NCBI GenBank assembly: GCA_009602725.1
Contig: WELB01000061.1
Location: forward strand, 369,016 to 430,406
Length of the DNA: 61,391 nt
From: Spirogloea muscicola
Lineage: Eukaryota > Streptophyta > Zygnematophyceae > Spirogloeales > Spirogloeaceae
Direction of reading: 5' to 3'
A program made the translations under genes and the position numbers. How positions within the stretch are numbered: the first letter of the stretch is position 1; the number at the start of each line of letters is the position of its first letter. Shown here one piece after another: positions 26,877-47,888 of this stretch. The notes beneath the pieces were generated by a model. The model searched no databases, was not told the DNA's origin, and saw nothing but the letters and a program-made list of their open reading frames with translations.

Positions 26877-29072
26877 ATGGGCGCCGCGCTTGATGCGGCG
26901 TGGCTGGTGCGTGCGCCACCGCCATCTTGCCTCCTCCCGCCTGATCACCGCTGATGGCCCTCACTGACGTGCCAATTGCGCACTCGCAAGCCGGCGCTGT
27001 TAGTGGAGCCGCCGCTGCCGTCTCCTGACTACGTCTCGAGCAATCGGTCGAGCCTTGACGTTGGCGCGCACCTCTCACGCTTCGTCCTGCGACGAGTCGT
27101 GTTTGCTACGAGCGTCCACCTCGCGCCGCAGCCTTTGGTCGCTGCCGCCGCTGTCGACGCGACGGTGGCCGGGCGCCTGACGCGGCCTCTGGCGCTGCTC
27201 CGCGACCGCAGGGCCTGACGAGCCGCTTCACGGACTTCCAGCTCGCCTCGCTCGGCAGCTTCGTCATCCACGAGTCCGTCTACTTCCTCTGCGGCCTGCC
27301 GTACCTCTTCATGGAGATGGCTAACGTCCGCAGCTACAAGATCCAGGTCCGCCGCCCCCCCGCCGCCGCCGCCGCCGTCGCGGGTGGCCCATCCTCTAAG
27401 ACTTGGGCTGTAGAACATCAGGGCCCGGCCACTCAGCCGCCCGCCATGATTGCCATCATCAGCTCACGAGCCTGCGCCGTCGGCCCCTCCGGCTCGGCGC
27501 AACCCCTCCTTGCCAGAACCGGGTGAACTCGCGCGAGGCGCAGCGCAAGTGCCTGTGGCGGCTCATGCTGTACCACTGCTTTGTCAACCTGCCCGTCATG
27601 GTGGCCGCATACCCCGTCTTCCGCTACATGGGCTTCTCCAGCCACCTCCCGCTCCCCTCCTGGTTCCGCCACTCTGCCCGCCCTTCCCCGCCTTGTCTTC
27701 CTCTGCCCTCCTTCCTCCCTCTATATCGCAATTCCTTCCTCCCCCCCTCCGCTCTCGCTGTGTTTCATCCCTCTCCCTGCAACTACTGATCCCTCCACTC
27801 CCCCATGAATTGCAACCTCGTGTAGTCTGGGGAGTTGGCCCCAGGCATTCACCTTCAACGTTCCTCCTTGCCAGCCTCCCTTCTGCCCCTCAGTCTCTGC
27901 ATCGTTGACATGGGCGCTGCCACCACCCTCCTTTTTGAATTGCAGGAAGACGATTGTGCTTCAGATTGCCAGCTACTTTGTCATTGAGGACTTCATCTTC
28001 TACTGGGGTCACCGGGTCCTGCACACCAAGTTCCTGTACAAGCACATCCACAGCGTCCACCACGAGTACGCCGCCTCTTCTCCTTCTGCTGGATGTCAAC
28101 TGTAGCAATTACAGAGGTAGCTTCCCCTCCAGTGGCAGTCGTGCATCGCTGAAGCAGAGTCCAGTGCGTGATCTATGTTGATCAGCTGGACCTCCTGGCT
28201 TCCTGCAGGTATGCGACGCCGTTCGGGTTGACGTCCGAATACGCGCATCCACTTGAGATTCTCTTTCTGGGATTCGCAACGATTGCGGGCCCGGCTCTGA
28301 CAGGCCCGCACCTCCTCACGCTCTGGCTCTGGATGAGCATTCGCGTAGTGGAGACAGTTGAGGCGCACTGCGGCTACGACTTCCCGTGGAGCCCCTCGCG
28401 CTTCCTTCCTCTATACGGGGGGTCAGTACTTGCTCACCAGACCGTCGCAACTACGGTTGAGGGTCGGAGGGTTGGTATTTGAGGTCATTGCTTGCTTGGG
28501 CGGGCGTCAGACCTCACCTCAGTTCTGAAGGACTTAGACCTCAGGCTTGAGGTCCAATTGCAGGAGATTGGTTTTCGGGTGCTCAAGCGAGTGTTGGCCC
28601 ACCACGATTGTATTCCTGCAGCTGAGCCGGCTCTTGGGACGTGCTATGTGGTTGTGGTCTCCAACCTTCCTGCCACATCTCCTCTAATTGCTAAATTCTA
28701 TACCGTAACCCCGGCAGGGCGGATTTCCACGACTACCACCATCGCCTCCTGTACACCAAGTCTGGCAACTATGCCTCAACCTTCATTTACATGGACTGGT
28801 GAGCCCTATATCTGCCAACTGCCTCTGACCTACTCTCTTAAGCATGCCTGCTCTCTCATGCAGGCTTGCTTGACTGTGTTACATGCGTAACCAGCTCAGC
28901 ATGACACAGGCAGGGGCATGTTTGCAGGTTGTTCGGCACAGACAAGGGCTATCGCAGGCTCAAGTCCATGCAGAAGAAGTCGTGCATTATTGATGAGACG
29001 GCTGCACGACCTGCAGTCGTCAATGGCCACATTGGTCCAACACTGACGGCCTGTGCAGCAAAGGTGGAGTAA
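26877..29072 (+). CDS. SMO2: Sterol 4-alpha-methyl oxidase, plant SMO2 type
   Basis: Seven exons: 26877-26906, 27212-27346, 27517-27662, 27946-28065, 28209-28421, 28718-28798, 28928-29072. They total 870 bases and code for 289 residues, with every junction rebuilding the family sequence. The product is the ER membrane di-iron oxidase that removes a C4 methyl group in phytosterol synthesis. Visible blocks are MGAALDAAWL|GLTSRFTDFQ, FVIHESVYFLCGLPYLF (membrane segment), WGHRVLH (HX3H box), HSVHHEY (HXXHH box), YATPFGLTSEYAHP, GPALTGPHLLTLWLWM, ETVEAHCGYDFPW, LYGGADFHDYHH (third histidine cluster) and LFGTDKGYRRLK. The length is slightly over the plant norm of about 265 because of a longer C-terminal tail. 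The 5' leader is GCC-repeat rich and holds one N at 26862. Confidence 0.97.
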
Positions 29073-29911: not shown

Positions 29912-32900
29912 TTACAGCTGTGAGGAGGTTTGAGAATCGCCAGCAGGCGTGATGCTTACACCACACGAGGCGAGTGTTGAGGAGGCCGCTACCGCAGGGG
30001 CGCCCCAGGGAGGCAGCGAGCTTGGCGTTTTCTGCACGGTGCTTGGCATCGAAGCAGAGGAGGGGATCTGGGAGGGTGTGGCCGGCTGCGGCTGCTGGCC
30101 AGGGATCAATGTGCTGGCAAGGCGCACACGCTCAGCAATCAGGTGCTGCCGCGTGCGCTCCACCTGGTCCCGCTCCTTGAGCAGCAGGTCTTCCAGGTCC
30201 TCGAAGTGGCGGAGCTTGATCTCCAGCTTCTTCACCTGCCGAAGAGCATGCAATGCAAGATCGAGCTGGAGCTGACTATTCACGTAAAAGTCACAATCAG
30301 GTTATCAGAGCAATCATCCCGGCGATTTCTTTCTGTTTAGTTGGCACTACAGTACTGGCTTGAGGTTGCACTGTAGACAAAAACCCCTGAGAGCAGGACA
30401 ACTAGTGAGACAGCGAGCTTCCTCAGCTGACCTGCTGCTCCATAACATCCGCAACCAAGCGCTGGATCTCGCGCTCCTCGGCATCTGCAAGCAGCTTTGC
30501 CTTGACGGCAGCTGCGGCCAGTCCTGTGGCAGCAGCAACCCGCAGCCGGAGTGCAGAGGTGGGGCTATCCTGTTCCCCAGCTGCATAGAAGAGGCAAACA
30601 TGTAAGAGCTTGCCACTCAGATGCTCTTGGAGGACAACCCCAGCTTTGCAAGCAAGCAAGCAAGACAGCGAAGACACAGTTCCCTTGACAATGGCAGCTT
30701 AGCATGCTTGTTCTCGCCAAGCTTGGCAAGCTGAGATAGACTGGGTTGCCAACCTGTTAAAACGCCATCTTTGGAAGCCAAAGCTGTGGTAGGAGCCCCT
30801 GCCTGCTGCTCTGCAGTCTCTGATGCTGTGGTCGGAGCGCCGCCCACGTCCGGGCCTCTCTCTGCCTGGGCAGCTGCCCCAACACCGGGTGCACTCTGCC
30901 CATCATGGATACGCACCTCGTTCTCTGGATACTCCTCCGTCAGGGCTTCAAGGGCTGCCTGTGCTGCTGCAGCTGCCACACGTGGTCCAACCATGGCCGC
31001 CAGGAAGGCAACCTGCACGTGGAGCAATTATCACATGGTACTCAATAACTGTACCTGCAACAAGGTCGCACAAGTATGCTGACCAAAGTAGGTACGAATG
31101 CAAAAAAGCAAGGGCCAACCTGTGCCATGATGGGGTTGCCGGCATCAGCGAAAGGGGTGAGCTCGGATGTAATAGATGAGACATCAGCTACCAATGTCTC
31201 GCCTTCGTCCCGCTTGTCTTCCCTACAATCTGATGAGATGTCAGGGGGCTGTGTTGCACTAGAAATTGGTTGTGGAGCACCGGAGTTAGTCGTCTCCAGC
31301 TCCTGCAGTTGAATGGGATGGAAATTCAGAAGAGGGCGGCTCATTGCTGACGACTTGTCACCAGTCAGCAGTGTGTCAATATTGCATCACAAGCACCACA
31401 AGCGCATGCTTGACATCCTTGTAAAATGCTTGAAAGGATGCCTGTACTGAAAGCTTGCAGATCAGACATGCCCAAATAGTACTAGTAGAAGTAGCAGTTT
31501 CTTTTGTACGTCTGCAAGGACAACTTGCAATCAAGGAGCAGAAAGGGACCTACTTCCAAAAATGGATCTTCAATGGGCAGCCTGATGAAGTGCAAGATGC
31601 ACTGCGCTTTTGTCTTGGTCACCACGTGCTCGGCGACCTCCGTCCAGCTGTCACCATAGAGCTCCAGGCCCTCGAGGAGGAGCAATGTTTCCTGTTCACT
31701 CCAGTCTTCTATCATGCCCCCACCGCCGCTGTCTTCTGACACTGGTCCTTTGTGAGTGAAGTCCGTTGAGGCCAGGCCAGGCCCGAGGCGACCGTCGGCA
31801 TAGCAGCCCGGGCAAAGGTCAACATTGGGCTGCAGGACAACAGAACTCAGCTGTGTCAACTTCCAGGAGAATCTAGATGGGCACCTGTGAAGCCCTTTCA
31901 GCTCCTTGAGAGGAGCTAGAGGAGGTAGCAAAGTCACCTGGATCCGGCAGTGGTAGCGACTGGAAGTGCACTCTGCGCCACACGCATCGCAGAAGTAATC
32001 TGCAACGCGGCCACGGACAGCTTGTGCAGCCTGCTGGACTGCAGCCTCCGCACTGGCAGGTGCATAGGCGCTCCGGTGGGCCGCCAGGCTCTGCTCGTGT
32101 GCTCCCGTGTGGGGCTGCCTTGGGTCCGCAAAGTGGTATAAGGCTGGGCCTGTGCCAACAGTGGTTGGCACCACTGCACGCACACCGGCTGGGCCCGTCT
32201 CCACCAGCGCTGCTGGCTCACCAGCCCACGGTAGCCCTCGCTGGCGAGACTCACCCGTAGCCTGAAGACACAAGACAAACTTCTGAGAAGCTCGTCTTTG
32301 GTCGGGCAATGGCAAAATCTACAGTAACGCAACTTGATCAATCAGGCATGACAGTATGCTTGCACCAATTAACTAAGCCATTGACTCAGCTCCTTGCACA
32401 CTGAAGACTTGACAACTCTGATGACTCTGATGACTCTGGAGCAGATACTGCTGCTAATCCTTAATCACAGACACTGACATGTTGAGGCATAAGGTACAAG
32501 ACTGTGCATACAATTTACAAGGTAGATTCGCAGATACCTTGCCTATAATGGGTGCTAAAGTGCGACCAGATGTTGACATATCTTGCCCTTGGAGCAGGGC
32601 TAAAACCTCACATGTTACAAACATCACCTCATATCATGAGGCCACCTATAGGACATGACTAGTAACCACTTTACACGTTGAGCAGGCGCAGCTAGAAGCC
32701 TTGGGTACCTGGTAGTTGATCAAGCCCCAGTGATTGAGGAAGTCAAACACCCGGCCCAGCATGCCCACGTCGCCGACAAGCATCCTCCGGACCTCTGTGA
32801 ATGTCAGCTGGCGCAGGGGGTCCTCTCGATACTTCTTGATGATGAAGTTGCGGTACTCAATGTACAGCTCCGGGGTCTTGGACTGCGATCGACGCTCAAA

Positions 32901-35900
32901 GAACTCTGGCAGGTGCCGGCGCTCCAATGGGTGTATCCGCGTCCATGAGAACCAACCTGATATGCGGGGTCATGACAGACAGCAGGTCATAACAGTTTCT
33001 GTGTGCCATAACGCCATGACATCTATCATAGACCTTGAGTCAGCAACTCAGAGAAGCAAAGCCATGAGAGCAGAGTGGACGGCTGTCGCTCATACCAGCA
33101 TGGCTTGGCACCCTATGGACCTCCGGAGTCGTCGGCTTGGACAGTGTCCCACCCTCCTGTTGCGGCACAGGATGCGGCGTCGGGCTTGGCACTGGGGGCT
33201 TGGGTGCGCCATGCTGGCCTGTGTAGGTTGAGATGTTCTCGACCCTTGGCAGCTGGCTGCCGCCACCACCGTCGCCGTCATTGCCACCGCCACTGCGGCT
33301 GTTGCCGGCACTGCCATCGACCGCCAGTCGGGCGTCGATGGCTGCCAGCACTGATGCATGCGGCTGCCCAATCTGCTGCCGTGACACGCGGGGCATGTCG
33401 TTGACCTGCTCTGCCCTGCCTGGGAGCACCTCCACGGGCTTGCCATCAGGTCCAAGCAGCACCGGCGGCTCCTTGGGAGCTGGCGCACCTCCTAGAGGCA
33501 GCTGCTTTTTCCGCTTGCCTGACAGAGGCGATGCCAGGCCGTTCTGTTCTGCTGCCGCAGCCGCTGCTGCCTCTGCACCTACATCAGCCTGCTTCGCTAC
33601 AGTGTAGTCGTCCCCGCGCTTGGTCAGCCGGAGCTTCAGAGCTGCACACTCATCACAGATAGCCATGAGCATGATACACAGGCCAATGTGTCAACGTCAA
33701 ACAGCTGCCTGCGCTGTGGCGGCTGCTTCAAGCTCTACTTTCCATTGAGGCATACGGCATCACCTTGCCGTCACCTGAAGCTCGACCTTGCATCACCTAG
33801 ACTGCAGCGGCTTGTCTGCAGCTTATGACCATCTTGACCCTCTTACTTCAGGCAATTGCTATAGCCCTGCCCTTAAGAAGACCCTAATCATCACCACTAA
33901 TATTCTCAACCCTCAACCCTAGATGCACATGCATGCTCGCCTGCTGACAGCACCTGGCGGCTGGTCGTTGACTTCTGCAATGCCCTCATCCTCTGCAGAC
34001 CGCTTCCTGCGCTTTCCCTGCTCAACATCGGTCCCGCCTCCAGCGCTCCCACCATCGTCACGGTCAGCGGGGGCGCCGCCATCGAGCTCCCCCTCCTGCC
34101 CGCGCTTGCCCTTCCTCCCACCTGTCTCCTCTCCAGCAGTCTCCATGGTCGTCGGCAGGACCGCTTCATCCGCCTCACCCTGTGACTGCTTTCGCCGGCT
34201 TCTGCTCCGCGAGTTCCTTGCTCCGCCGCTGGCTCCCTTCTTCGTTACTTCCTTCTCCTCAAGCACATAGTCCAGCTCATTCATCCTGATGGCAATACAA
34301 GAGCAAAAGAAGTGCAACTTTCACGACTGCCACAACAAAGTGCACTCCTGTGTTACTGAAAGGACGCCCCTAGAAGCATTCTCAGTGTCCAAATCAAGGG
34401 TGGGCGGGCCTACCACTCATTGTAGAGGCAGCTGTCCCTGAGCCATCGAAGGTGAAGGTGCCAGGGCCCCTTGTGCGGCGTCTCCTCCTCTGCCTCGCCC
34501 TCAACATCGCCTGCCACCAACATAGAGAAGTGGGTAGTCAGCTGAGGGCTACCATTCCAGAGGGCTTGAGCAAGATAACCCTTAACCGTGTCAATTGCTA
34601 ACCGTGACCTTAACTCTCTTTCCAGTGGTAAAAACATTGTGAAGGTGACTGTCTCCTGCAGATTATTGTTCTATATGATGAAGGGTATACGAAGCGCAGA
34701 TGCGGACCTCACCAAGAGGCAGCCATTCATCATAGCTGTCAGGGTAATACCACCAGTGGACCCTGGCAAAGTTCCCCTGCACCTCCAGCGTACGTATCCA
34801 CTCTGAGTCCGGATTTGCGTCGGGCTCCGCCGGTGGATCCGGGTACAGGATGTGCGACACACCCCTCTCAGCTGGCGAGCAGCAATGGACATGGGCAACT
34901 CAGCATCTGTTGCCAGCAGGTATTACTACTGGTCAAGGTATTTTAAATCTAGAACCTAAAACAATGACAGTATGTCCAAAGTCCACCATGCACAACTGCA
35001 CATGGAGAACTTTCGTCGACTCACACTCGGATGCTGCGACCTCAGCGCCAGCTTGCTTCAGGACAAAGTCCTTGCAACACATCAGAAGTAGCAGGCTTTA
35101 GGAAGTTGCCATTGTGCCTGTATGTCAGGTGGACCTTTGCATATGGTGACAGCAGCCCGTGCAAGTGAGCATGAACAGCAGCTTCTGACTAAGCTGGTAA
35201 AGAGCATCATTGAAGGCCAATAATCTTGCACGATCAATAGCATGACCCGCCAAATGCAGGCACTCTTTTCGACATCAGGATGCCCACTGCCCTCACCTTG
35301 AGATGCTCCAAGTCTTCACCAACTGCCACCGGTGTGAAGTAAATCTTGGGAGGCTTCAAGAAGCCCTTGGCCTGCGAGCCACTCGCACAATCCGTGCTAA
35401 GAAGCAATTGTTGCACTTCCCGAGCTACTGATCTAAGTGAGGAGGCCAGCTCTTTTGGCTGCGGCCTCTCTCGCTGCGCACCTCGAGCTCCTTGAGTATA
35501 CGCTGGAGGAGGATGATGAGGGAGTCGCGGCGAGCGGGGGACTGGAAGTCGATGCGCCGCACATCCTGCTCTGCCTTGAACTCGATACACTTGCTGAGTA
35601 TGGTCGCGAGTGCGCCGTTGGGCCGGAAGTCGTGGAAGAGCTTGAGGGGGATGCGCAGGAATGGAGGCTTGAGCTGCGCCTGTGGATGGGCATTCAGTGT
35701 CAACGATGAGGGGCTAACGATGTCTCTACCATAGCGCGAGCTCGGCAGAGTCATGCTGCAGCCTGCCTCAGGCGGCAAGGCTGCCGCCAAGCACGTGGGG
35801 CTTGCTGGCCCTGGCAAACCCGCAAGACAGACGCAGCCATGCTAATCCAGTACGGCCAACGCCGTTCTGGGCCAGAAGCTAGACTGACGGAGCCAGGACC

Positions 35901-36174
35901 AGAGGTAGCCGCACCAACGGACGTGCGACGCATTTCTGGACGTTCTTGAACCTCTGCTTTATCTTGATCGGCCAAGAGAGCAGGAGATGAGGAGGGAGGA
36001 CGGCACCTCCTTGCCAGCCACGAGCTCGGAGAAGTCGATGAGCTGAACCGTGAGCTTGGCAGCGCTCTGCCGATCGACCTGGGAGTCGGGGAAGCGCTTG
36101 TGGAGGGCCTCTGCCAGCGCGTCGAGCTTGCGCAGGTTCTCACCCTGCCCCCGCCGCCGCCGCTCGAGAGCCAT
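29912..36174 (-). CDS. SWI3: SWI3/SMARCC core subunit of the SWI/SNF remodelling complex
   Basis: Reading from high to low coordinates: RKLDALAEALHKRFPDSQVD and SAAKLTVQLIDF (36.1 kb); IPLKLFHDFRPNGALATIL and RRIDFQSPARRDSLIILLQR (35.6 kb); PPKIYFTP (35.35 kb); ILYPDPPAE, VHWWYYPDSYDEWLP (34.75 kb) and HLHLRWLRDSCLYNEW (34.45 kb). These match the N-terminal MarR/BRCT/chromo-like module of animal BAF155/170. A SWIRM domain follows, GWFSWTRIHPLERRHLPEFF to VFDFLNHWGLINYQ (32.95-32.71 kb). Next are a ZZ-type finger CDACGAECTSSRYHC...DLCPGCY (31.98-31.80 kb), a SANT domain DWSEQETLLLLEGLELYG to ILHFIRLPIEDPFLE (31.71-31.56 kb), AFLAAMVGPRVAAAAAQAAL (31.0 kb), ATGLAAAAVKAKLLAD (30.5 kb) and the coiled coil KKLEIKLRHFEDLEDLL, ending at TAA 29914-29912. 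It scaffolds the complex on chromatin. The start at 36174 (MALERRRRGQ) is the first clear ATG, and a further 5' exon near 36.35 kb is possible. Confidence 0.95.
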
Positions 36175-36530
36175 GGTGTCAGCCGCGGGGACGACGCACA
36201 GCAGGCCTGAGTTGCCTTCGCTCGGAGGCGCTCGTTGTCTGCGCACAGGGGGCCTTGCGCGGCGGCCGGCCTGCGCTGCGGCGGCGTTCGCACCTCGAAG
36301 TCCCGACCCTTCGCCGCGCCCGACTTCCGATGCGCGGGCATCCTGCCGCGGCCGTCGCCGCTGCCGCCGTCGCCGCCGCCCCCGCGGCCGCGCGAGGCGG
36401 CGGCCCCGCAACCAGCGCCGCGAGGTGCGGGCGGCACTTAGGCCGGGAAAACTGCAGCAGGCGTTCTAGCCTGGAAGCCGTCACCCGCCTCGGCGGCCGT
36501 CACCGCGCTCCGTCACCTATCCCCGGACCC
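36175..36530. promoter_or_regulatory. SWI3 5' region
   Basis: Very GC-rich sequence with CCG/CGC runs. A possible short upstream coding exon on the minus strand (MPAHRKSGAAKGRDFE, ending at a GTGCGA donor near 36295) could supply a different N-terminus for SWI3. The evidence is not strong enough to extend the gene. Confidence 0.4.
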
Positions 36531-36598
36531 TTTGGAACCTTGTTAATTCTTTTACTGTGCTGCCTTTTCACAGCCCTTTATTTTCACAGCCCTTTATC

Positions 36599-36823
36599 CC
36601 TCCCCCGTTCTGCCATAGCCTCTTCAGGCCCCGCAGTCGCTGCTTAGCTCGTAGTTTGGCCCCTTCGAACCTTGTCAATTCTTTTCGGGCTGGCGCTCTC
36701 TCCCAATGGGGGCAAGGGCTGTGAGAAGCCAGCCCGAAAAGAATTGACAAGGTTCGAAGGGGCCAAACTACGAGCTAAGCAGCGACTGCGGGGCCTGAAG
36801 AGGCTATGGCAGAACGGGGGAGG
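36599..36823. repeat. Perfect 96-bp inverted repeat (palindrome) with 33-base loop
   Basis: Bases 36599-36694 are an exact reverse complement of 36728-36823; I checked every ten-base block. The loop 36695-36727 contains CCCAATGGGGGCAAGGGC. Both arms carry the variant retroelement tail GGCCCCTTCGAACCTTGTCA plus flanking sequence (CTTCAGGCCCCGCAGTCGCTGC). It is a foldback formed from two inverted element ends and would give a 96-bp double-stranded RNA if transcribed. Confidence 0.95.
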
Positions 36824-37388
36824 ATGGACCACTTAGTAGTTAGTAGTTACGAGTGAGGAAGAGAGAGATTGGGAGAGCCACTTCTTCCTCTTTATTTCAA
36901 ATACACGAAATCTATCCTCTCCCCTCTTTGGCAGAGCTCACTATTTTAAGTGTATTATCAACATCCCCCCGCCGTTACCCGCCAAACTCGCCATCCGCTC
37001 CGCCCCGCCCGTCACCCCCAGCCCCACCGTCAAACCCTCGCCTGGGACCTCGAGGGCGGCCCCGCAATCACGACGCGTCAGGCGGCGGACACTGACGCGA
37101 TCGTCAGCCACGCTGACGCCCTCTACGCTGCCGGCCGTTACCGCCGTTCGAACCGCCGCAGCCCCGCGCGAGCTCCACCGTCCGCCATTGCTGCGCCCCG
37201 CTCCGCCCCCCTTCCTGCTGGCCCGCGCCCTCGCCGCGCCGGGCGCCGCTAGCGCCTCGCCGCCGAGGCGCGGCCGTCGTCCTCCGCTGGCCAGCGGCGG
37301 CGGCGAGCAGGCAGACGGCGCCGCGCCCGCGGTCGCCATCCACGGCGCTGCTGGGGGGATCGGCAAGGCGGCCGCCGGGGCGCCAGCC
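36824..37388. promoter_or_regulatory. Kinesin-7 5' flank with an E2F-like site
   Basis: The flank runs from the palindrome to the kinesin ATG. CCCGCCAAA at 36978-36986 reads TTTGGCGGG on the minus strand and fits the E2F consensus. The rest is C-rich and looks like promoter and 5' UTR. It has low-complexity open frames on both strands but no recognisable domain. Confidence 0.4.
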
Positions 37389-40300
37389 ATGGAGAAGATC
37401 TCCGTCTCCATCCGCGTCAGGCCGCTCAGCCGGCCGGAGCTGGCCAAGGGCAGCCCCTGGCGCGCCGAGGCCAACACCGTCGCCCTCTGCACTTCCGCCG
37501 GCGCGGTTGTCTCGGGCCACTCCTTCTCCTTCGGTACGAGGCTGTGCTTCTACAGGAGGCCCCTGCCGCTGCTCTTCTCCTTCTTAGCCACTGGGGCCCT
37601 CTTCCTGTTCATCGTTTTCTGCTTCTAGCTTACTGATAAACTGTGCTTGGGCCCGCATGACTCGTCCTACAGACAGCGTGTTCGAGCACGATGTCAAGAC
37701 CCTCGACATCTACAAGAAGGACACCAAGGACATCATAACATCGACTGTCTATGGCTTCAATGGTCCGTATGCACGACATTCTCCACGGGCTCCGGACCAG
37801 CTGCACTTCGTCTCATCTGTCGTAGCTATGAAGAGGCTGCTTCCTACAGCCTAGTCACGCAGACAGCCATAAGCCAGCTGAGCCCCAGTTGCCTAGCATC
37901 TTTCCATGGCTGCCAAGGCTCATTCAGCCTTGTCACTTTAGGGCTGCTGTATATTGCCAGGTACTGTCTTTGCTTATGGCCAGACGAGCAGTGGGAAGAC
38001 TTACACAATGCGCGGCACGCCTGAGGAGCCGGGCATCATTCCGCTGGCTGTGCACGACGTCTTCAGCCACATTCAAGAGGTGTGGCAAGAGGCGCCGCAG
38101 GGCAGCTCCTGTAGCTATGGACTTTGACCAACAAAGCACGAGAATGCAGCTCTCAGCCTGTGCATGCGTGTTCAGTACCTGGTCACAATGTTGGAGCAGC
38201 TCAGCCCGCCGTGCTCACTTGCGGCCGTCCAAGTTGAGCTACGCATGCTAGGCCACTAATGGCTGCTTCTCCCTGCTGCAAGGCTGCAGGCCACAACGCG
38301 CGAATTTCTGCTCCGTGTCTCATACATGGAGATCTACAATGAGGAGATCAATGACCTGTTGGCTCCCGAAAATCGCAAGCTGCAAATTCACGAAAGCCTC
38401 GAGGTAGCCTAAGCAATGCCTACTGGCCCTGCAGCCCGTGCAGCAGGATTTACTTGCTGTGGGTATCTGACATAGCATGGAGCTGACCCCAAAGGGGTGC
38501 TGCAGAGGGGTACTTTTGTAGCTGGCCTCCGTGAGGAGATTGTTGTGACGCCGGAGCAGGTCTTGGAGATACTGAAGTCGGGGGAAGGTATGCTGGCCTA
38601 GTATCTTTGGCATGTCTTAGACCTCCCAGAATTGCTGGGGCCCATCCCTGCAAAGTAATAAGGTGTCTGGTTCCCAGTATCAGACTGCAAGTCCTGCTTT
38701 TCTCGGGTGGTCTTATGACAACCTGATCCAAAGCCTATCAGGACTCAGGCATATTTTGGAACAGATGGCTTCATGGCGGGCCCCTCTTATTTGCTTGTGA
38801 TTGTTGACCATTCTTGATTGTGTTGTCCAGCGCACAGGCATATTGGTGAGACCAACATGAATGTCTACAGCAGTCGTTCACACAGCATTTTCAGGATGGT
38901 AGTATTCCAGACCTGAAATGAGTGCTTCTTACCCCTGCCCAGCGTTGTGATCCAATCCACTATAGAATTCCATTGGAGGTAGGAATAGCCACAGCAGAAG
39001 ACTAGATGCTTGATTAGAAAGTTGTGAGGGTGTCTTGGTGCCAACTTGTGTGTGGGCTATAGGGAAGTGTGATTTGCTTGTGGCCTACATGCAAGTGACT
39101 TGCTTGTTGGCTAAAGGCAAGTGTGCTTGGGCTTGCTTCAGGTCATTGAAAGCAGGGACAAAAGCATGGATGATGTTGACAAGACGCAGAAGGACAGGAG
39201 ATTTGACGCCGTGAGGGTCTCAATATTGGTAAGACATGCTGGTTGACTGTACATATTGCTGCACGTAGTGGTGCTCTTCCTTTTCTTCTGATGCTGCTGA
39301 ATCTGGCTCACAATGTCATAGGTCATTGCTAACCTGGCCATCTTGCACGCAGAATCTGGTTGATCTTGCTGGATCCGAGCGAATTGCCAAGACGGGCGCT
39401 GAAGGTGCCCGTCTGAAAGAAGGCACTCACATCAACAAGAGCCTCATGACCTTGGGCACAGTCATAAACAAGCTGTCTGAAGGCACCGAGCGTAACGGGT
39501 GAGCTTTACCCCTATAAGTCCTGATGATAATTATCTGCAGGGTGGTGACAAGAATCTTCACAACCGGCCCCTCTGAACTCATGGTAGTAACCAGAAATCT
39601 TGTTCACTTTATCCTTGGCTTGTTGATCAGAACTAGAAGTCTGACGTCTCGTCGCTGCCTTACTGCTCACACACCGCTAGTTCCTTGGGTTTGGCAGGGG
39701 CCATGTGCCATACAGGGATAGTAAATTGACCCGTATACTGCAATCTGCCTTGGGGGGCAATGCAAAGACGGCCATCATCTGCAACATAACACCTGCTGCA
39801 GTAAGTGACTGCTTCCTTGTAGCAGCCAGTCTTGGATTTGCCAGCACAGAATGCTGGCAGGCAAGCAGTCTGAAGAGCGGAGCATTGGCAACATGATGGT
39901 TGCTCATGCCAGCGTGAAGTGTTCGCCCATCACAGATTCACGTTGATGAGACCCGGGGTACACTGTTATTTGCAAGCAGAGCCAAGAAGATCACCAACTG
40001 CGCACAAGTCAATGAGGTACACCCACTGCATGAGGAATGCTTGGCTCTGCTGGTACCACAAAAGTGCTAGCAGCTTGAGCTTGCCAAGTGTGCCGTCGAG
40101 AGAGCATATTTCATGCTCGAACTTGCTTTGGGGAGGGCTAAGTGGCATGAAGGATAGATTTGCAGGTGCTCACAGACGCAGCCTTGCTGAAGAGGCAGAA
40201 ACGCGAGATTGAGGAGTTGAGGCTGAAGTTGCAGGTACAAGAATAGACCATGCCAATGGTTTTGTATCAAGGTCTTCTGGGAGGAGAAGCTGGGAGGAGA

Positions 40301-43300: not shown

Positions 43301-46300
43301 GATGAGCTGCACAGCGACGTCAAGAAGCTCAAGGGTCTCCTGGCCGAGTCAGACCATGTGGTCATGGTCAAGTCCACTGAGTCTGCAGACAGGCAGGCTG
43401 CCTTGCTCAAAGCAGAGGCACATACTGAGCAACTGACTGAAGAGCTGAAAGTGCTTGAGATAGAGAAGGCTAAGCGAGAGGAGGAAAGGCGTGAGCTTGA
43501 ATGTACACTAACAGGAACTATTGACAACCTTCGCAAAGAGCTTGCAAAGATGGAGCTGCAGCTTAGTACAACATGTCAGGAGCTGGATACTGCGATTGCT
43601 AAGCTTGTAAGACTGGCATTCTGTCTGGCTTTAGTTGATGCCCTACTAGCTGCCTGATTTAAAAGTGCCCTAGGCATCCTGGCATTGTTAGTTTTCTGAA
43701 CATCACAATTGAAGGCTGTGCACAACACTTCGGAGTTGGTCTGACGAAATCTGCTCCTGCTATCTCTCACCAGGAGCACGTGACACATGCAAAGGAGGAG
43801 GTTGAGGGGCAGATGCTCGCTGGAAAAGCCTTAACAGACGAAATGGCTAGCAAGCTGGAGGTTTGATTCTTTTGCTAGCATCCTTGTAATTGTACCAAAT
43901 GTCATAATATCAAGTCCGTGCCAAAACAACACTTCTTTGATCATGCTATCTCTCACAAGTTTCGACTTCATGTGCCATCTACTGTGCATTGCCAGGTGAA
44001 CCAACAGCAGCATAATCATGAGATGCAACTGCTTAGAGCAGAGCTTGGGGGGCTGCGGAAGGAGGTGGCCACAGCCAAGGCACTGCCAGCAGGTTTGGAA
44101 AAGGAGCGAGACAGCCAAAGGAAGGAGCTGGAGAAGCTGAGAGGGAAACTGAAAGACGTGGATGCAAAATTGAAGACAGCACTCCAAGACAAGAGCAGCT
44201 TGCAGGTAAGAAACATGTAGAAGTAGGACCGCCTGCGATCAGTGTCATGTTGGAGACGCAGCAAGATGTCGATGATGCCCAGTGGTGCCTGATGACTGTT
44301 TGTAAATATACTTGTATAGTACTTGAATGCTCCTATCAGTGAAGCTATCCGCCACTTCCCTACCCATAGTGCCTTCTGTGTCTGGACCATAATAGCTGGT
44401 TATGCTTCTTTGCCTTACAGACTGAGAAAGCCAACATAGAAAGGGAGGTGAAGGTGCTCAGGGGCCAAAGTTCGCTGCTGCAGCGCGACATTGACCGCAG
44501 AGAGAGCACGGTAGACAAGCGGCGTGAGAGCATGGCCCAGGGCCTGAATAAAGCCAAATCGCAGCTGTCCTCCATTGAGCAGGCACTGCAGTACAAGTGC
44601 ACGGAGCTTGAGAAGACATGCTTTGACCTTCAAATGCTCCAGGTCCAGACTTCATTCTTGATTGTCGCTTGCTGCCACATGCTGCTGACCAACAGAGGCA
44701 TCTGATTATATGTGCTTTTCTTACTTGGTGCACATATCTCACTGCGTCTGTCCATGTCCAGGAGGCCAACAAAGGCCTCGAGGCTTCCAACATGGAGCTG
44801 GAAGCCGCCGGGACTGACGCTGAGAGCAAGCTGCAGACAGCAGAGAGCAACCTTAGCACACTGCAGGAGGAGATTGGCAACTTGATGCTGCAGCTGGAAA
44901 AGGCCACCCGACTTCAGCATGATGCTGAGCAAGGCTTTGCAGCTGCTGAGAAGGACTTGCAGGAGGCTCGGCAAGAGTGTGTACTGATGGTGAAGCTCAT
45001 TTTCCACATCATGAAGGCAGAAGAGCAGTCAAACTTCGCCTGTCAAACTGCAGCGTGGTACTTGTTCAATAGTAGCACCACTTGCATGGCTTCTTAGGAG
45101 TATTTGTATGCTTGTCATGCACAGGCAAGTAAGCTGCAGAAGTGCGAACGGAGATTCTCTGAGGCTGAGAGCAGAATACTGGAGCTTCAAGTGGTTGAGA
45201 AGGAAATGAAGCAGGTATGGCTCTCGCAGCATTTGGTGCAGAGCTGCCTCTGTGTAACGTGTGATTGCCGCTCAAAAGTCACTACTCCTAGCGCACAGCT
45301 TGACCCTCTCACTCAGAATTTCTCCTTGCACAATATTCACTCAGGTGACCAAAGAACTCACGGAGGCACATTTCACATTCGAGGAGGACAAGGCACAAAT
45401 GTCCTCAAGAGAGCAGGAGCTTGGCAGTGAGCTTGAGCTTGTGAAGAGCAAAGTGAATACCGCCACTGCAGAGTGCTCCAAGCTTAAGGAGCAGTTGAGG
45501 CATGCTGACATGAGGATTACTGAGGTTGGTACCGTCCTTCTGTTGTCGACCCAGCAGCATGCGTGATGTATGGGAAGGCACTGGGAGGGGCAGCTGATGA
45601 CCTGTCATTTTGGCTTGCGGTCAGGTGACTGTATTGTATGAGCAAGTAAAGCAGGAGAGTGGGGAGCTTCAAATGATCATCACGAAAGAACGTGAGCATA
45701 ACACAATGGAGAGCCAAAAAATGGCAGAAGCATACGAGCAGCAGGTACTGGAGTCAACGGAAGTTTATGTATTTCATATTGTTTGTCAACTGGAATAGGA
45801 TGCCATGTACAATGTAGACCACTTGATCTATGTCGTTGCAACTATAATCTCTTGCTTGTGTGCTCAATCGCCCTGCAGAAAGAGAAACTTGTGTTTGAGC
45901 TTGAGCGGATGCAAGAAAATGCCAAGGAGCTTGCCAAGCAGCAAGCTATATCTACTCAGTCGGCTGAGGAAGCATTACAAGCGAGGCAAGTAGCGACTCT
46001 CAGAGTTTATCACAGAGCAGAGCAAAAAATAGATGGCATACATATTTGGAACAACTTGTAAACCAGATCAATGAGTATGTATTCTCTTACTGACATACAC
46101 TTACAGCAATGATGTTAAACAGCAACATAAGCTAGCTAATCTGCCAAGGCTATATTGAGAATTTGTATGTGCTTTGCGCCTGCAGTAAGGAAAAGGAGGA
46201 GTTGCTCCTTAGAAGGGAGGAGCACTTGAGTCTGATGCTGCAGCAGAGCATGGCCCAGCTCGCAGTGCTGCAAAGCGCTGACCTGGAGAAAGAGGCAAAA

Positions 46301-47888
46301 CTAGCGAAGCTCCTGGCAGAGTGCAAGAGGCTGGAGGAGATAGTTGACAATCTCAATGAGCAGGCAGAGCTGCTGCAATCCCAGTACCAAGGGGCTGTGC
46401 ACGAGGTCCGCAAGCAGACCAGCATCATCAAGCATGCGGAGGAGGCAGCCGCCAGCGCCGAGCGGAGCTTCCTGGAGGAGCTCGAGACGACCCGGTCGCA
46501 GGTTGGCAAGGCAGAGCAACAACTTCAGGACGCTAAGATGGAGGCAGCACGAATGAGAGTCACCATGGACATATCACAGGCTGTCAAGCGTAAGTATTCT
46601 TGTGCTCCTCACCATGAGCCAGTGCTTTTCTTTGAAAACAGCAATTACGACATTCTTTCTGCTAATGACTATGATGACAACAATCTGGCAGATGTCTGAC
46701 ATCCTTCATGCCTGTCCTGCCCTCAGAGTCAGAACAAGCATCAAGAGCAGAAGTTGTTGCAACGAAGGATACACTTAGGCAGGCGCAGAGGCGCCTGCAG
46801 GAAGCCGATGCCCAGATCGACGAGCTTAAGAAGGTTGCTGGTGAAGCCAATGCGGAGGTCAACAAGCTGAGGCAGAAGTTGCGGGAGGTGGAGTCTCAGG
46901 AGCAGATGCTGAGGTCTGCGAGGACGGGCCTCGACACCCCAGGACGGAGACGGTTCATCTCCCCGTCGGAGGCACAGGTCTGAGCACCAGCTACTGAGCT
47001 GCAGAGAGCCCCACCAACCCTTGATTATGCCACTGCCTAAACATCATATAAAGTGAAACAGTGGAGCAAACTCCTGCGTTCGACGCATTCGTTGGCATTC
47101 CTGCCGGCGACTGAATATGTGAGTGTGGTTGCGTGCCGGCAGGCAAAGAAGAACCGCATCTTGGAGGAGCGCTTGGCGGAAGCAGGCCTGCAACTCGAGG
47201 AGCAGGGCGATGTAAACGATCGGCTGAGGTGTGCTTCCTGCAGAGCTCTAAGCCTGGGTCTCCTCTTGCTAGTCCGCAGCGCTCGTTAGCTCGGTGAGCT
47301 GAATTCTAAAATTTTCCATTTGCAGGAAAGAGCTGGACACAAATGAAAGCCGGCACAAGGAACTGGCAATTGAGCTGACAGAGAGGAACCGCATGCTGCT
47401 GCTCCGCTTGCGGAAGGCGGAGGAAGGCCTGCTGTACATGAGGGTGTGTTGCCAATCCTCTACCTGCTCTTCCTGTGTTGAGGTCTGATCTAGTCCTGCA
47501 GCAGCCAGACCATGCTCTCACATGCTGGCTGGAGGCATTGCTCTGCATGAGCAGGACCGAGGAGCAAGGCGGCTCGAGAAACTCCACCTCGAGGAGCAGC
47601 TGGCAGCTGGAGCAGCGGAGCTCGCCGAATCCCATGGCCATCGAAGAAGAGCGGTGGCTGAACTTGAGGCCCTGCAGCTGCAAGTAAGATATGATAGCAG
47701 CTCCATTTGAAGCTCCTCATCACTTCTCTTCCCTGGAACTGTGTTCATTGCCTGGCAGCAGTATGCTTGTCTTGGCTGAAGGGGTCTCATTGTGAGGACT
47801 GGTCCCGCTTCAGTGGCTGACAAGCAGTCTTTTCCAGGTAGGAACACTGGAGGCGAGCATTAAGGTCCAACAAGGCCCATCAAGGTGA
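37389..47888 (+). CDS. Kinesin-7 (CENP-E-like) motor with long coiled-coil tail
   Basis: N-terminal plus-end microtubule motor. Motor exons checked in frame: 37389-37533 ([17 protein letters not shown]), 37673-37762 ([14 protein letters not shown]), 37961-38079 ([16 protein letters not shown], the P-loop), 38290-38403 ([18 protein letters not shown]), 38506-38587 ([12 protein letters not shown]), 38831-38898 ([18 protein letters not shown], switch I), 39142-39228, 39353-39498 ([14 protein letters not shown], switch II), 39698-39800 ([18 protein letters not shown]), 39936-40016 ([18 protein letters not shown]), 40166-40234 (the neck). After the neck come many small exons and one long exon (about 42750-43604), nearly all heptad-like coiled coil such as [18 protein letters not shown]. 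The last exon gives [12 protein letters not shown] and TGA at 47886-47888. The total is well above 1,000 residues. The GQTSSGKT P-loop and architecture place it in kinesin-7. Tail exon borders are only partly resolved. Confidence 0.94.

Follow-up and report, generated by a model that had tools for sequence, protein, structure and literature searches.

Can the MarR-BRCT-chromo module at the N-terminus of the animal SWI/SNF subunits SMARCC1 and SMARCC2 (BAF155/BAF170) be an animal invention if an alga carries it as well? This question is raised by a gene on the minus strand of a 61,391-nucleotide stretch of the Spirogloea muscicola genome (contig WELB01000061.1, positions 369,016 to 430,406), which as a whole is called the window below. 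In the paper on the crystal structure of the module, Allen et al. write that it "is only found in metazoa", connecting its gain with animal multicellularity (PMC8099880), and a 2023 review that contrasts human with yeast describes it as absent in the yeast proteins (PMC9839376). The gene of the window is predicted to encode an uninterrupted SWI3/SMARCC protein of 1127 amino acids, assembled from 15 exons separated by 14 GT-AG introns. Its first ATG (36174) and its stop codon (29912) are exactly the limits of the region 29912-36174 singled out in a preliminary description of this DNA. As judged from the sequence, the algal protein combines the module with a ZZ zinc finger and contradicts the published metazoa-only statement (PMC8099880).

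The domain organization of the spliced protein is that of a SWI3-type scaffold. Pfam profiles match SWIRM-assoc_2 (PF16496) at residues 26-121 (4.7e-21), SWIRM (PF04433) at residues 544-622 (1.2e-25), ZZ (PF00569) at residues 712-743 (9.4e-6; 25.8 bits for a cut-off of 21.4), Myb/SANT (PF00249) downstream of SWIRM at residues 773-814 (1.1e-10) and the C-terminal dimerisation region SWIRM-assoc_1 (PF16495) at residues 989-1062 (1.2e-25). For SWIRM-assoc_3, there is only a hint below the threshold (0.04). The presence of SWIRM, a downstream SANT and SWIRM-assoc_1 identifies the predicted protein as a member of the SWI3/SMARCC family. The preliminary description had placed three conserved peptide blocks and a CX2C...DLCPGCY finger on this strand, where all were recovered, and the profile search that it proposed matched the SMARCC N-terminal module, SWIRM, ZZ and SANT in order. 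A six-frame search of the window gave one occurrence each of HWWYYPDSYD and DLCX2C[YF].

The module itself is recognised well beyond the MarR part covered by PF16496. A PDB sequence search extends over nearly the whole module: the crystal structures of the MarR-like/BRCT/chromodomain module of SMARCC1 align with residues 34-259, far beyond chance (6yxp, 1.5e-40; 6yxo, 1.7e-40), with 79 identities among 218 aligned residues. Human SMARCC2, which has the same module, reaches 4.5e-112 summed over five stretches, the best of which covers algal residues 34-358. Beginning at residue 34 and reaching the C-terminal region, the matches to SMARCC2 are collinear and include, in the same order, SWIRM, SANT, a GNP(I/V)M..VAFLA segment and the C-terminal region.

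Conservation extends to individual residues of the structure. Eighteen residues named in PMC8099880 were mapped onto the alignment; the map reproduces 17 of the letters, the exception being residue 192 (Glu in the paper, Gln in the map). Twelve of the 18 are identical in the alga (D111, K129, R144, R220, H232, W233, Y236, S239, D241, N277, E278 and D284), among them the two conserved cleft residues without a structural role, Asp111 and Asp241 (algal D73 and D210). In the hydrogen-bond network between the domains, N277, the E278-S239 pair and D284 with R220 and H232 are kept and K103 and F235 are replaced conservatively, whereas the link between E156 and residue 192 and E283 are not. By this comparison, the algal module appears to retain the cleft residues, part of the network locking its domains together and both of the methyl-lysine cage residues that are left in the human domain, and to lack two inter-domain contacts.

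The gene is present three times in the 153-Mb genome (471 contigs). Besides the window copy (contig C61), a SWIRM search in which only the best candidates were scored placed two loci over the cut-off, one on contig C36 and one on C3, while two weak ones fell short of it; no SWI3-type gene beyond these three homeologous copies was found among the scored candidates. Both further loci are colinear with the window gene, with 86-89% DNA identity in the blocks covering it. The stretch 44000-47000 of the window is likewise present three times, and both stretches are 86-94% identical in long matches. Because this second stretch is also triple, the three copies are attributed to a triplicated genome or to three haplotypes and not to a SWI3-specific family. 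This suggests that the genome is triploid or hybrid, or that three haplotypes of roughly 51 Mb each were assembled.

These copies allowed the gene model to be checked. The exon edges were placed by hand on the window copy and then tested against C36 and C3, where the GT...AG signals and the phase are kept for 14 of 14 introns. Intron lengths drift among the three copies (for example 108/111/110 and 327/311/326), and DNA identity is 72.4-93.6% in introns and 91.6-100% in exons, except for exon 3. In copy C36 (L006/L007), one base is missing behind the ATG that serves the other two; this copy must begin with an in-frame ATG of its own slightly downstream, giving a protein of 1121 residues. The start codon assigned to the gene is accordingly tentative. 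In copy C3, an in-frame stop is found at the fourth codon upstream of exon 8 with no ATG between, so that exon 8 must be joined to the upstream exons. The SWIRM exon has an in-frame stop at the sixth codon upstream, again without an ATG, in C61 and C36. Exons 1-15 fit a single gene, predicted to encode one protein with both the module and ZZ.

Selection on the domains was estimated from the ratio of nonsynonymous to synonymous substitution rates (dN/dS) between the three copies. It is 0.073-0.085 in the MarR part and 0.051-0.189 in the BRCT-chromo part of the module, compared with 0.026-0.115 in SWIRM, 0-0.069 in ZZ (at most one amino-acid change in 47 codons) and 0 in SANT. Higher values were obtained for the linker between the module and SWIRM (0.30-0.37) and for the part after SANT (0.20-0.39). 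By these ratios, the module is under purifying selection and maintained as a working domain.

The position of the finger just before SANT, as given in the preliminary description, stands with the correction that a 108-nt intron (31937-31830) splits ZZ. In the window copy, this intron is open and a multiple of three; it measures 111 and 110 nt in the other copies, and the 110-nt one (C3) cannot be read through in frame. ZZ scores 16.5 bits unspliced, below the threshold, and passes it once spliced. Retention of this intron (intron 10) was rejected, as it would break ZZ and measures 110 nt in C3.

By the ligand positions that a canonical ZZ finger uses, the first zinc site of the algal ZZ (CX2C..CX2C) is intact and the second is degraded: the YHC is present, and the next Cys is replaced by Gln (YHCRIQ). 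The algal finger has one complete zinc site instead of two. In yeast Rsc8 and Schizosaccharomyces pombe Ssr1, the Cys of YHC is gone as well, so both Cys of the second site are lost. Given this degradation in alga and fungi and the mention of "the Zn2+ ion", in the singular, in the description of the Rsc8 ZZ (PMC6959994), the algal domain is probably a single-zinc, SWI3-type ZZ.

The finger had been called a plant-type feature, a label that proves too narrow, since both fungal proteins carry ZZ; a plant-specific ZZ was rejected on the same ground. The alignment of yeast Rsc8 with the algal protein runs unbroken over SWIRM, ZZ and SANT, and Ssr1 has CX2C...DLCX2CY before SANT. Both share the CX2C...CX2C site, and Rsc8 also the S(T/S)DF tail. 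This agrees with published work on RSC, in which Rsc8 consists of SWIRM, ZZ, SANT and coiled coil and its ZZ and SANT belong to the head lobe (PMC6959994). The C-terminal region of Ssr1 matches the alga, whereas the match of Rsc8 is not significant. Unlike the algal protein, neither has the N-terminal module: the matched part of Rsc8 starts only at residue 88 and that of Ssr1 at 125. A module profile built with SMARCC1/2 included retrieved no Swi3, Rsc8 or Ssr1 among the PDB chains even at E 10, only SMARCC1/2 and six noise matches (E 0.97 and above).

Human SMARCC2 differs in the opposite way. It gives no ZZ match; the phmmer alignment breaks off at 548 and starts again at 576, in a stretch where GLRTDMYTKKN of SMARCC2 pairs with GLASTDFTHKG in the tail of the algal finger. 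This would fit a loss of the finger in animals, with the ZZ tail left behind. Land-plant SWI3D resembles the alga in having ZZ in a SWIRM-SANT protein; in the passages describing them, land-plant SWI3 proteins contain SWIRM, SANT, SWIRM-assoc_1 and, in SWI3D, ZZ, and an N-terminal module goes unmentioned there (PMC6829904, PMC3424641). Algal SWI3s are reported to group with the SWI3C/D clade (PMC8128824).

Taken by sequence, the domains seem to be divided in three ways: in animals, as represented by human, the module was kept and ZZ seems to be lost; ZZ in a protein lacking the module is seen in Rsc8, in Ssr1 and, per the literature, in land-plant SWI3D. Since the module is common to animals and the alga and ZZ is common to fungi and the alga, an ancestor with the full set is the simplest history, and the presence of ZZ in fungi therefore strengthens it. 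It is likely that the module did not originate in animals in connection with multicellularity and that the ancestral eukaryotic SWI3 consisted of module, SWIRM, ZZ, SANT and coiled coil, of which animals, fungi and land plants kept different subsets; the ligand of the module would then be ancient and common to algae and animals. The preliminary description had proposed that one protein keeps both the animal-type module and the plant-type finger and may represent an ancestral set later split between lineages. One gene model indeed holds both and the ancestral set is the simplest reading, but the split cannot be drawn between plants and animals, as ZZ is also fungal. Among the matches listed in a literature search that left out most subscription papers, preprints and protein databases, no report of the module outside animals or of the combined architecture was recognised. 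A survey of 36 species including Chlamydomonas, Coccomyxa and Ostreococcus reports the presence of SMARCC, with SWIRM unmentioned in its main text (PMC9170682).

The animal-like domain could in principle stem from an artefact. An assembly chimera or contaminating animal DNA, considered for that reason, found no support and can practically be dismissed: three colinear copies, 86-94% identical in long matches, lie on contigs of 0.7-1.8 Mb with shared flanks, which effectively refutes it. The genome also holds genes of a photosynthetic organism, with 68 exon-wise matches to light-harvesting domains and eight to RbcS on four contigs. One light-harvesting ORF (open reading frame) matches 79 PDB sequences at E <= 1e-60; among the best 60 of these 79, LHCI-2 is at the top and most others are chlorophyll a-b binding proteins. 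Together, these genes mark a chlorophyll a/b alga, most likely one of the green lineage. A search of the assembly for rbcL (PF00016) gave 0 matches (5 of 14 controls matched), and the plastid genome was probably left out of the assembly. It is very improbable that exons 1-7 form a stand-alone gene for the module, adjacent to a SWI3 gene made of exons 8-15. Such an arrangement would draw on the stop reached 11 codons into the sequence following unspliced exon 7 in all three copies and on the two in-frame ATG codons just before exon 8 in C61 and C36. It conflicts with the stop without ATG before exon 8 in C3, on which it was rejected, and with splice signals and phases that fit in three copies and an order as in human SMARCC2.

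The gene would be uninformative on ancestry if, instead, the module came from an animal, by horizontal transfer into the alga or into a recent ancestor, and was joined to a ZZ-bearing SWI3. The published metazoa-only view (PMC8099880) and the fact that this alga is the only non-animal carrier compared would agree with such a transfer. The module is nevertheless 35% similar to human SMARCC2, less than SWIRM (48/88), SANT (34/51) and the C-terminal region (45/74); a recent transfer should give the opposite, though the argument is weak as domains differ in evolutionary speed. Its coding region is cut by six introns, all present in three copies, which is also weak evidence; on these two grounds, a recent transfer is unlikely. 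The module also sits at the same protein position as in animals, and PF16496 at E <= 1 over the genome matched only the three SWI3 loci and no stand-alone module gene (1 of 14 controls matched, below the cut-off). A different objection is that the full architecture may be widespread and unremarked in green algal proteomes, which would make the gene a routine orthologue and leave only the printed metazoa-only sentence wrong. This has slightly better than even chances: the constraint and the vertical-looking divergence predict a wide presence in greens, the placement of algal SWI3s in the SWI3C/D clade (PMC8128824) agrees, and nothing speaks directly against it. It is compatible with an ancestral full set, and lowers the surprise of finding one.

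Several observations weigh against a conserved, ancestral module in one gene. Low dN/dS is also found outside the named domains, the SWIRM-ZZ spacer having 0.085-0.12. Six of the named module residues are changed, two of them conservatively (Lys103 to Arg, Phe235 to Tyr) and the others being Glu156 to Leu, Glu283 to Leu, Trp134 to Val and residue 192 to Ala (PMC8099880). Ahead of the SWIRM exon, copy C3 has an open frame of 235 codons with five ATGs, so the one-gene argument at that exon holds in two of three copies only, a caveat to the rejection of two genes. One review credits yeast Rsc8, Swi3 and human SMARCC1/2 with zinc-finger modules (PMC7445562), in conflict with the ZZ gap proposed here for SMARCC2. 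As to partners, an exon-wise genome search for SNF5 (PF04855) gave 0 matches, with 0 of 14 controls matched either. Finally, the ancestral polarity is what we infer from one algal genome and the human and fungal chains.

Overall, the locus is very likely a SWI3/SMARCC scaffold gene in three homeologous copies whose product would form the dimeric core of a SWI/SNF remodeller and carry the ancestral domain set, of which animals lost ZZ and fungi and land plants the module. The SWIRM-SMARCB1 and SANT-ATPase contacts and the dimer are known from Rsc8 and SMARCC structures (PMC7445562, PMC6959994). By analogy, the C-terminal helix would dimerise to build the core, SWIRM would hold the SNF5-type subunit (SNF5/SMARCB1), SANT would clamp the N-terminus of the ATPase, and ZZ and SANT would pack together in the head lobe, like those of yeast Rsc8. 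The MarR-BRCT-chromo module may act as a mobile arm, tethered by the linker of ~280 residues, with its inter-domain cleft binding a peptide and/or DNA partner. The alga would have retained the domain set of the animal-fungus-plant ancestor.

The meaning of the gene is an evolutionary correction of the animal-only view, by a variant of a known family and not by a new system. If the module is ancestral, the ligand sought for it should exist in the alga too, and an ancient ligand becomes testable. Residues kept since the animal-plant split mark the surface of the module that matters, including for human disease variants. Organisms such as this alga, with module and ZZ in one predicted gene, would also allow the two to be removed separately.

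Table 1. Exons of the SWI3/SMARCC gene in window coordinates, with the domains that they encode and the supporting evidence.
Feature	Position	Strand	Content and evidence
Exon 1	36007..36174	-	Start ATG and first half of MarR-like domain; open frame and GT donor in three copies; SWIRM-assoc_2 from residue 26
Exon 2	35482..35679	-	Second half of MarR-like domain (IPLKLFHDFRPNGALATIL...); Pfam SWIRM-assoc_2 2.8e-16 on ORF alone
Exon 3	35297..35371	-	BRCT start; collinear with SMARCC1/2; splice sites in three copies; least conserved exon (86.7-96.0% DNA identity)
Exon 4	35025..35070	-	BRCT continued (LKDFVLKQAG...); 97.8-100% DNA identity among copies
Exon 5	34713..34871	-	Chromodomain inserted in BRCT (HWWYYPDSYDEWLP); splice sites in copies and SMARCC alignment
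Exon 6	34414..34510	-	BRCT second part (HLHLRWLRDSCLYNEW); splice sites in copies and SMARCC alignment
Exon 7	33954..34285	-	BRCT end (MNELDYV) and linker; splice sites in copies and SMARCC alignment
Exon 8	33096..33641	-	Linker to SWIRM; frame kept in three copies
Exon 9	32709..32956	-	SWIRM; PF04433 3.2e-27 on ORF alone
Exon 10	31938..32261	-	SWIRM-ZZ spacer and first half of ZZ (YFCDACGAECTSSRYHCRIQ, 31997-31938); splice sites in copies and Pfam match in spliced protein
Exon 11	31554..31829	-	Second half of ZZ (NVDLCPGCY..DFTH, to 31749) and SANT; PF00569 over cut-off in spliced protein, PF00249 1.1e-10
Exon 12	31120..31302	-	Post-SANT region (PFADAGNPIMAQ); splice sites in copies and PDB alignment
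Exon 13	30754..31012	-	VAFLAAMVGPRVAAAAAQAALE segment; matches SMARCC2 and Ssr1
Exon 14	30432..30580	-	Start of C-terminal dimerisation region; SWIRM-assoc_1 from 30527; PF16495 1.2e-25
Exon 15	29912..30235	-	KKLEIKLRHFEDLE region, tail and stop codon; PF16495

Outside the family, ADA2 of SAGA resembles the algal protein in having ZZ followed by SANT, with a weak ZZ-SANT cross-match (3.2e-11 to 6e-10). Unlike in the algal SWI3, SWIRM is C-terminal in ADA2. One of the two weak SWIRM loci in the genome (contig C27, L009:4752-5078) is a divergent SWIRM that also weakly matches the C-terminal domain of Ada2b, both below the cut-offs, and may be ADA2; the other, on contig C239, is similar and may be ADA2 as well. 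A pattern scan for relatives gave 33 and 5 matches in a viral contig set and 48 in a genome contig set, none of which was confirmed.

The adjoining exons lie on the plus strand and match a fatty acid hydroxylase (27809-28482) and a kinesin motor (37942-38127); one flanking ORF was also compared with NCBIfam, with no match. At 36599-36823, close to the gene on its upstream side, a perfect 96-nt inverted repeat encloses a 33-nt loop. The segment around it (36523-36999), unmatched by blastn at the C36 and C3 loci, looks like a small palindromic insertion specific to the window copy.

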